Of a stretch of 64,000 nucleotides of DNA, positions 13,221-16,360 are shown in pieces. Each line of letters starts with the position of its first letter. Position 1 is the stretch's first letter. Made by a program: the position numbers and the translations under genes. Below the pieces are notes generated by a model. The model was not told where the DNA came from and did no database searches. It was given only the letters and a program-made list of their open reading frames with translations. Source of the stretch: an uncultured Pelagibacteraceae bacterium (GTDB taxonomy: Bacteria; Pseudomonadota; Alphaproteobacteria; Pelagibacterales; Pelagibacteraceae); NCBI GenBank assembly GCA_902611145.1, contig CACLYO010000004.1, positions 1 through 64,000 of the forward strand, given 5' to 3'.

Positions 13221-15293
13221 ATGTTCAAAGTTAATAAGAAAGAAATAGAAGTAGACGGAAAAAAAATTAGTTTAGAAACAGGAAAGATAGCAAGGCAAGC
13301 AGATGGTGCAATAATAGCTCGATGTGGAGAGACAGTTGTTATGGCAACAGTAGTTGGTGCTAAAAAAGTAAATCCTGAAGTAGATTATTTTCCATTATCA
13401 GTAAATTACCAAGAAAAATATTATTCTGCAGGAAAAATACCTGGAGGCTATTTTAAAAGAGAAGCAAGGCCAACAGAAAGCGAAACACTTATCTCAAGGT
13501 TGATTGATAGACCTATAAGACCTTTGTTCCCAGATGAATTTAGAAATGAAGTACAACTACTTCCTACAGTTATTTCTTATGATAAAGAAAATGAATCTGA
13601 TATTTTATCAATAATTGCATCTTCAGCTGCACTTGCCATTTCAGGAATGCCATTTATGGGTCCTGTAGGAGCTTCCAGAGTTGGTTTTATTGATGGGAAA
13701 TATGTTTTAAACCCTTCAAAAAAAGAATTAGAAAAATCAAAACTAGACTTAGTGGTTGCTGGAACTAAAGAAGCAGTTTTAATGGTTGAATCAGAAGCAA
13801 ATGGTTTAAGCGAAGAAGAAATGTTAAAGGCCGTAAAATTTGGCCATGAAAATTTTATTCCAATCATTAAAATGATAGAAGATCTTGCAAAAGATTGTAA
13901 AAAACCTGACTGGATAATAGAAAAAAAAGATCTCACAGTGATAAAGAAAAGATTAGATAAAGAATTTACTAGTGAATTAAAAAAAGCTTTTTCAATAAAA
14001 GATAAACAAGAAAGATCTAATCTTATATCTGATATAACTGAGAGAGCAAAAAAACTTTATGAAGATGATGAAAATATTTCTGAGTTGGATGTCAATTATG
14101 AGTTAAAGAATTTAGAAAAAAAAATTGTAAGAACAGATATTATCAAAAATAAAAAAAGAATAGATGGTAGAGGGTTAGCAGATGTGAGACCTATAGAGTG
14201 TGAAGTTGGAATTTTACCAAGAACTCATGGGTCAGCTCTATTTACTAGAGGTGAGACACAAGCAATTGTTACAACAACACTTGGTACCTCAGATGATGAA
14301 CAGAGAATTGAGACATTAGATGGGTTAGTTAGAGAAAGATTTATGCTTCATTATAATTTTCCTCCATTTTCTGTAGGTGAAACTGGTAGAATAGGAACAG
14401 GAAGAAGAGAAATAGGACATGGAAAATTGGCATGGAGGGCTATTAAATCATCTTTACCTCCAAAAGAAAGTTTTCCTTATACATTTAGAATTGTATCAGA
14501 AATTACAGAATCTAATGGATCATCTTCAATGGCAACAGTTTGTGGAACTTCACTAGCATTGATGGATGCTGGGGTTCCAATAAAAGAACCAGTAGCTGGT
14601 ATTGCAATGGGATTAATAAAAGAAGGAAAAGAATTTAGTGTTTTATCAGACATTTTGGGAGATGAAGATCACCTTGGAGATATGGATTTTAAAGTTGCAG
14701 GAACGAAAAATGGAATAACGTCACTTCAAATGGATATAAAAATTACAGGAATAACATTTGAAATAATGGAACAAGCTTTAAATCAAGCTAAAGATGGAAG
14801 AATTCACATATTAGGCGAAATGAATAAAGCTTTAGATAAATCGAGGGCAGAAGTTGGTAAACATACTCCAAAAATGGAAAAAATAACCGTAGATAAAAAA
14901 GATATTGCTACTGTAATTGGAAAGGGTGGCGCAACTATAAGAGAGATAGTTGAAAAATCTGGAGCTAAAGTTGATGTCAATGATGAAGGAGTTGTAACAG
15001 TTGCTGCACCAGACGAAGACTCTAGAAATATTGCTCTACAATTTATCAAAGACCTTACAGCTAAAGCTGAATTAAATAAAATCTATAACGGTAAAGTTAT
15101 GAAAATTATGGAATTTGGAGCATTTGTAAATTTTCTAGGAAAACAGGATGGTTTAGTTCATATTTCTGAGCTTGCTGATAAGAGAGTTGCAAAGGTTACT
15201 GATGTAGTTAAAGAAGGCGATGAAGTTAAAGTTAAGGTTATTGGTTTTGATAGAGGCAAAGTAAAATTATCTATTAAACAAGCTGTTGCGTAA
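13221..15293 (+). CDS. pnp: Polynucleotide phosphorylase
   Basis: 690 residues: two RNase PH domains (first with [19 protein letters not shown]; second with [16 protein letters not shown] and [15 protein letters not shown]), a KH domain ([16 protein letters not shown]) and a C-terminal S1 domain ([19 protein letters not shown]). The enzyme degrades RNA 3' to 5' with phosphate and joins the degradosome. ATG immediately follows the rpsO stop. It closes the nusA-pnp unit; I see no clear hairpin after it, only the end of the convergent small ORF. Confidence 0.98.
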
Positions 15294-15307: not shown

Positions 15308-15457
15308 TTATTTAATTTTGTATTTGATTCTACTAATTAAAAAAATAGCTAATGCACTTAAGACAGCGAATACCTCAAGTGCATGTCCTGAATTTCCCAA
15401 AAGTAATTGAACAAAATAAAATATAATACAAACTACAAACCAAACTAATATCAACAT
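15308..15457 (-). CDS. Small two-helix membrane ORF, 49 aa, frame-linked to the upstream ORF
   Basis: ATG at 15457 overlaps the stop of the ORF at 15457-15570 (TAATG). The product has a first hydrophobic helix (MLILVWFVVCIIFYFVQLL), a short loop GNSGHALE, a second helix (VFAVLSALAIFLI) and a basic tail. It could be translated alone by coupling, or be the C-terminal half of an 87-residue protein if the ribosome or polymerase slips by -1 in the A10 tract just upstream. It is last in the fabA-fabB-fabI minus-strand unit. I do not recognise a family. Confidence 0.5.
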   Translation of the reverse strand: MLILVWFVVCIIFYFVQLLLGNSGHALEVFAVLSALAIFLISRIKYKIK

Positions 15458-15570
15458 TATTTTCTGTTTTTTTTTTCTCTTTTTAATTTTCTTTTTTCCT
15501 TAAAGGAAAGTTTTGCTTTTTTCATTACAGATGAGTCTTTAAAAGATTTACCGCTATATCTTTTAGACAT
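15457..15570 (-). CDS. Small basic ORF, 37 aa, downstream of fabI
   Basis: ATG follows the fabI stop by 4 bases, so translation coupled to fabI is likely. The peptide begins MSKRYSGKSFKDSSVMKK and is Lys/Arg-rich to the end. Its last codons run through ten A residues (T15467-T15476 on the plus strand), where the heptamer A-AAA-AAC occurs in frame. A -1 shift there joins it to the hydrophobic ORF at 15308 to give a basic head plus two membrane helices. Function unknown; coding is supported by placement and codon pattern, not homology. Confidence 0.5.
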   Translation of the reverse strand: MSKRYSGKSFKDSSVMKKAKLSFKEKRKLKREKKNRK

Positions 15571-15574
15571 AAAA

Positions 15575-16360
15575 TTAAGTTATGTTTTTTGGATCAGGCA
15601 TCCCTACTTTATTATATCCGGCATCTACATAGTGAATTTCACCAGTAACACCACCTCCAAGGCTACTTAATAGATATAAAGCTGAATTCCCAACATCATA
15701 GATATCTACGTTTCTTTTTAAAAAAGAATGGTCTTCATTCCATTTATAAAGAAATTTAGCATCTCCAATTGCAGATGCTGCAAGAGTTTTAATTGGTCCT
15801 GCACTTATTGCATTTACTCTAATTCCCTTTGCTCCTAGGTCTCTTGCCAGGTATTTAACACTTGCTTCAAGTGCAGATTTACAAACACCCATTACATTAT
15901 AATTTGGAATAGCTTTATTAGATTCGTAAGTTAAAGTGAGCATACTTCCACCTTTATTCATAATTTTAGAGGCTTCTTTTGCAACCTCAGTAAATGAAAA
16001 GCATGAAATTAACATACTTCTTAAAAAATTTTCTCTAGTAGTATTTAAGTATTCACCTGATAATTCAGATTTGTCTGAAAATGCAACTGCATGAACAACA
16101 AAATCGATTTGATTCCATTTTGATTTTATATCTTCAAAAAGTTTCGTTACTTCTTCTTTTTTTTCAACATCACAGCTAAATGTAACGTTGGATTTAAGTT
16201 TTTCAGCTAATGGAATAACTCTTTTTTTTAAAGCATCTCCTAGATAGGTAAATGCTAATTCTGCTCCTGCTTCAGCTAATTTTTGTGAAATCCCCCAAGC
16301 AATAGATCTTTCATTAGCCACCCCCATGATTAATCCTTTTTTTCCTTTCATTAAGCTCAT
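15575..16360 (-). CDS. fabI: Enoyl-[acyl-carrier-protein] reductase (NADH)
   Basis: 261 residues of the short-chain dehydrogenase fold. The N-terminal GVANERSIAWGIS nucleotide loop is typical of FabI. The catalytic Tyr-x6-Lys appears as YNVMGVCK, followed by the conserved LARDLGAKGIRVNAISAGPIKT. It reduces trans-2-enoyl-ACP, the last step of each elongation cycle. It is third in the fabA-fabB-fabI minus-strand operon, three bases after fabB. Confidence 0.96.
   Translation of the reverse strand: MSLMKGKKGLIMGVANERSIAWGISQKLAEAGAELAFTYLGDALKKRVIPLAEKLKSNVTFSCDVEKKEEVTKLFEDIKSKWNQIDFVVHAVAFSDKSELSGEYLNTTRENFLRSMLISCFSFTEVAKEASKIMNKGGSMLTLTYESNKAIPNYNVMGVCKSALEASVKYLARDLGAKGIRVNAISAGPIKTLAASAIGDAKFLYKWNEDHSFLKRNVDIYDVGNSALYLLSSLGGGVTGEIHYVDAGYNKVGMPDPKNIT

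Follow-up and report, generated by a model that had tools for sequence, protein, structure and literature searches.

The programmed -1 frameshift of dnaX takes place at a slippery motif of the A_AAA_AAG type. According to the part of PMC4066793 used here, frameshifting at A_AAA_AAC has been proven for one IS cluster, and this motif is among those that exceed 0.10% frameshifting in E. coli with no stimulator present; the same part states that a stimulatory downstream structure is not always present at prokaryotic frameshift sites, and uses conservation of the motif as one criterion for such sites. A different relationship between adjoining genes is termination-reinitiation. One-base overlaps of the form TAATG, TGATG or TAGTG are the commonest prokaryotic overlap after that of -4 nt; they are a standard layout for coupled pairs, and their spacing falls in the range regarded as a sign of termination-reinitiation (PMC10666635, from the portion of the text used here). 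A screen for frame transitions ascribed some of its clusters to translational coupling rather than to frameshifting, and some possibly to both (PMC3711429, likewise in part). Our searches found no literature on programmed frameshifting in Pelagibacter, or on small proteins and overlapping genes in SAR11. One match for ribosomal frameshifting in Pelagibacter concerns, in the portion of that source available, viral ribosomal proteins.

The window, i.e. the entire 64,000-nt stretch analyzed here (G+C 0.274), comes from a SAR11 genome that is 84% complete, its 1.13 Mb being spread over 29 contigs. On its minus strand a fabI-type enoyl-ACP reductase gene (15575..16360; Pfam PF13561) lies 4 nt ahead of ORF1 (15457..15570, minus strand), which codes for a basic protein of 37 residues that begins MSKRYSGKSFKDSS and ends in a Lys/Arg-rich tail, with 17 K/R against 3 D/E over its length. 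The lysine codons of this tail include an A10 tract (15467..15476), whose last six A residues form an in-frame A_AAA_AAC with the C at 15466; the zero frame of ORF1 ends GAA AAA AAA AAC AGA AAA TAA. The stop codon of ORF1 and the start codon of ORF2 (15308..15457, minus strand) share one base in the sequence TAATG (15455..15459), and the pnp gene for polyribonucleotide nucleotidyltransferase (13221..15293, plus strand; Pfam RNase_PH, PNPase, KH_1 and S1) is the convergent neighbor. ORF2 codes for a 49-residue protein with two hydrophobic stretches, for which a single-sequence structure prediction gives a helical hairpin (helices 2-20 and 23-48, mean pLDDT 84). An earlier sequence-only reading of this DNA had described, without naming the strand, the basic ORF behind fabI with its A10 tract and in-frame heptamer, the start of ORF2 within the ORF1 stop codon, the two helices of ORF2, and a gapless joined frame after a single -1 slip. 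Each of these descriptions holds for the window sequence: reading on in the -1 frame after AAC gives 35 + 52 = 87 residues, with 14 open codons ahead of the ORF2 ATG. From composition one may guess that ORF2 acts at the membrane and that the partner of ORF1 is a nucleic acid or the ribosome.

We conclude, with a probability of about 0.94, that these are two independent small genes that follow one another directly downstream of fabI; coupling of ORF2 to ORF1 at TAATG is probable. The two ORFs occur separately, both show conservation of their respective frames, and close relatives retain the overlap. To compare junctions, we assembled 12 loci of the genus, including that of the window, with ORF1 directly before ORF2, and eight from named records, which were taken from the best 80 of the 382 ORF1 matches listed and in which adjacency was judged by pattern; one of the junctions (L166) was added by eye. 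When identical junctions were counted once, these 20 paired loci gave 17 distinct junctions, although some genomes and named records may come from one organism. The comparison used a 250-nt slice, and the product lengths of 47-49 residues obtained in it are bounded by the slice end. Every one of the 17 junctions has an ORF1 of 37 codons, and in 15 of them ORF2 begins with an ATG that overlaps the ORF1 stop by one base. The exceptions are L066, where ORF2 begins one base past the ORF1 stop and thus in a different phase, and L166 (about 2112), which has AAG at the aligned ORF2 start and a closed frame upstream; the latter may use a later TTG start or be a decaying gene. The genes are co-directional, and their spacing (-1 nt with ATG in 15/17, +1 nt in L066) falls within the -8 to +6 nt used to define coupled pairs. 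Such a one-base-overlapping pair is an ordinary arrangement.

The joined frame of the window, by comparison, is poorly kept. After slipping by -1 at the last A_AAA_AAN site or the last two, a ribosome would run into a stop within 0-2 codons in 12/17 junctions, and in L066 it would read eight codons in the wrong phase. Only four of the 17 can be joined by such a slip: the window (L001), L051/L162, L054/L089 and L056. At L088 the ORF1 protein is identical to that of the window, yet the joined frame is blocked. A transcript with one extra A would be read like a -1 slip and would meet the same stops. Hence, most relatives could not translate ORF1 and ORF2 as a single protein.

The ORF1 family is widespread among close relatives. 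It was detected at E <= 0.01 in 89/147 genomes of the family and in 47/53 of the good ones. Among the 89 matches, 25 are weak (E > 1e-6), and four of these contain a stop inside the aligned stretch. Three genomes (G108, G119 and G146) have two matches each, the second in G146 being weak and containing stops. In the class sample it was found in 3/289 genomes, all of them from the same family; the genus, family, order and class samples were all drawn by the search tool. Across ten variants that we selected, 23 of the 37 positions are invariant. The sequence is kept (window 15457-15570; L016-L045, L075-L085, L088-L167) while its location varies: besides fabI, ORF1 is found behind TsaD (L079), before SRAP (L021) and beside other genes. 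Among 116 distinct loci with sufficient upstream DNA, 76 have a same-strand ORF of at least 60 residues ending -8 to +10 nt from ORF1. ORF1 also stands behind fabI without ORF2, as in L045 (G083) and, judged by pattern, in L096, L152 and L165.

The ORF2 family is rarer. Matches were found in 15/147 family genomes (2/53 of the good ones), in 72/399 genus genomes and in 19/197 genomes sampled from the order, where they lie within two genera of the same family. The family and genus tallies, both of which include the source genome, each contain one weak match. That in the family tally (L015, in G030; E 0.0037, 38% identity) lies inside a 492-residue open frame that looks like a Trk-type transporter and was dropped from the loci; the one in the genus tally is a 26-residue match in G162 (E 4.7e-4), outside the loci read. 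We read 43 loci, drawn from the family and genus searches (at most the best 30 of each) minus L015, with L168 and L169 left out. ATG is found at the aligned start in 43/43, and in 27/43 at most three codons ahead of it are open. ORF1 lies within 200 nt upstream in 12/43 loci. The remaining 31/43 are without ORF1, with ORF2 directly behind fabI in 9/43 and elsewhere in 22/43; in L007, for example, it sits between the Maf and shikimate dehydrogenase genes. The DNA beside ORF2 in the other loci of L002-L014 resembles that of L007. Like ORF1, the family (window 15308-15457; L002-L014, L055-L074) keeps its sequence while its location varies.

A renewed search for ORF1 in 22 genomes found a match in 12. 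In 19/22 ORF2 has no adjoining ORF1; ORF1 was found elsewhere in nine of these 19, in five on a contig other than that of ORF2 and in four on the ORF2 contig at a distance of tens of kb. The other 10/19, drafts that are 51-97% complete, gave no ORF1 match. As many of the genomes are incomplete drafts, the absence of either ORF from any one of them carries little weight. Given the presence of ORF2 elsewhere without ORF1, the pair looks less like a split gene than like two genes that came to adjoin in one lineage. Searches of NCBIfam and Pfam gave no match for either protein up to E 1. Against PHROGs, the sole match of ORF2 was phrog_3093, an entry of unknown function (E 0.017), and a phage origin was set aside as no relative of either ORF was confirmed in viral contigs. 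The analysis thus yields two small-protein families without Pfam or NCBIfam match, whose sequences are kept as their neighbors change and which appear so far only in this SAR11 family.

Substitution patterns point the same way. Across 11 paired loci, a set that excludes L066, the ratio of the mean dN to the mean dS is about 0.09 for ORF1 and 0.08 for ORF2. Differences from the window are concentrated at third codon positions in both (31/20/92 at the first, second and third positions of ORF1, and 57/21/121 in ORF2). This pattern indicates that both ORFs are under purifying selection, each in its own frame, and thereby that they are two protein genes.

Taken together with the shared base, these results suggest how the pair may be expressed. 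The fabI gene, ORF1 and ORF2 would be co-transcribed; ORF1 would yield the lysine-rich 37-residue protein, and as TAATG joins its stop to the ORF2 start, a ribosome terminating on ORF1 can probably begin on ORF2 without delay. Such termination-reinitiation would account for most ORF2 translation, which would start at the ATG of ORF2 and give a separate membrane protein, a helical hairpin of 49 residues. Of the options that the sequence-only reading had left open, only that of a coupled pair holds up: the overlap at TAATG recurs across the junctions, and coupling itself is read from it. That reading had named homologs with two clearly separate ORFs and no slippery tract as the finding that would count against a joined product. 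Separate ORFs were indeed found, but most relatives keep the A-rich tract, as lysine codons.

The main alternative holds that a programmed -1 frameshift at the A10 tract, or transcriptional slippage adding one A, joins the two ORFs into a membrane protein of 87 residues whose N-terminus is basic. The X_XXZ_ZZN pattern of a slippery site is present in the zero frame of ORF1 as A_AAA_AAC, the joined frame is open in the window, and all four joinable junctions contain A_AAA_AAN. As A_AAA_AAC is slippery without stimulators in E. coli, background slippage at this locus, at a low level, is possible. However, some A_AAA_AAN is present in 17/17 junctions, whereas the exact heptamer is found in two (L001 and L056) and 13/17 are blocked or out of phase, so that neither the exact motif nor the joined frame is conserved. 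Folds in three spans past the heptamer were no better than those of shuffled sequences (z 0.69, 1.95 and -0.10), and inspection by eye for the motifs listed in the part of PMC4066793 used here revealed no Shine-Dalgarno-like stimulator 6-17 nt before it, the nearest AGGA beginning 28 nt ahead. Inside ORF2 (about 15352-15384) there is a hairpin of 14 bp with a T7 run behind it, which is terminator-like on the minus strand. It was rejected both as a frameshift stimulator and as a terminator, being about 80 nt past the motif and forming in only two (L001 and L051) of the 19 loci folded.

The motif itself also occurs at chance frequency. The window has 59 ORFs that code for 60 residues or more; they contain seven in-frame A_AAA_AAC sites in seven genes, which is not above the mean of 10.1 (range 4-18) from 200 within-gene codon shuffles, and 293 in-frame A_AAA_AAN sites; coding A-runs of at least ten number 18 in the window. 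When the ORF1 protein was back-translated at random with window codon usage, the probability of obtaining A10 was 0.66, that of A_AAA_AAN 0.87 and that of A_AAA_AAC 0.11. The A10 tract looks as expected for a lysine-rich tail at this base composition, and can be ascribed to the lysine codons of ORF1 in a genome of 27% G+C. Slippery heptamers are thus to be expected by chance in AT-rich genomes, and relatives should be tested before recoding is claimed. With 13/17 junctions unable to make the product and both ORFs free-standing elsewhere, we regard a dedicated frameshift or slippage product as very improbable.

A mixed version, to which we give a similarly slight chance, would have slippage at the A-tract yield a little ORF1-ORF2 fusion in the window, L051, L054 and L056, bringing the basic ORF1 to the membrane, while in most other lineages a slip would lead to a stop beside the ORF2 start, with both frames terminating at this point and reinitiation assured in either case. 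A still fainter prospect is that ORF1 is a leader ORF rather than a protein gene, its translation setting the expression of ORF2; its shortness and its overlap with the ORF2 start would fit this role, but its amino acids are conserved (23/37 invariant, dN/dS 0.09) and it is found without ORF2 beside other genes. Least credible is a single gene split by a sequencing or assembly error, which the sequence-only reading had also raised and for which the open joined frame of the window and the error-prone nature of homopolymers in sequencing could be cited, because ORF1 holds 37 codons in 17/17 junctions even though the 12 paired genus loci differ in their longest A-run, which spans 7 to 11, most junctions have a closed joined frame, and both families stand alone elsewhere.

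Two kinds of known system come closest to this arrangement. The window shares the A_AAA_AAC heptamer and an open -1 frame with the A_AAA_AAG and A_AAA_AAC frameshift sites of dnaX and IS transposases; it differs from them in that the motif and open frame are not conserved, no stimulator is seen, and the two ORFs occur independently. As in termination-reinitiation pairs, a stop and a start share one base, and this arrangement is kept in 15/17 junctions; unlike in those pairs, coupling is here inferred from sequence, no complex of the two proteins is known, and either gene frequently occurs without its partner.
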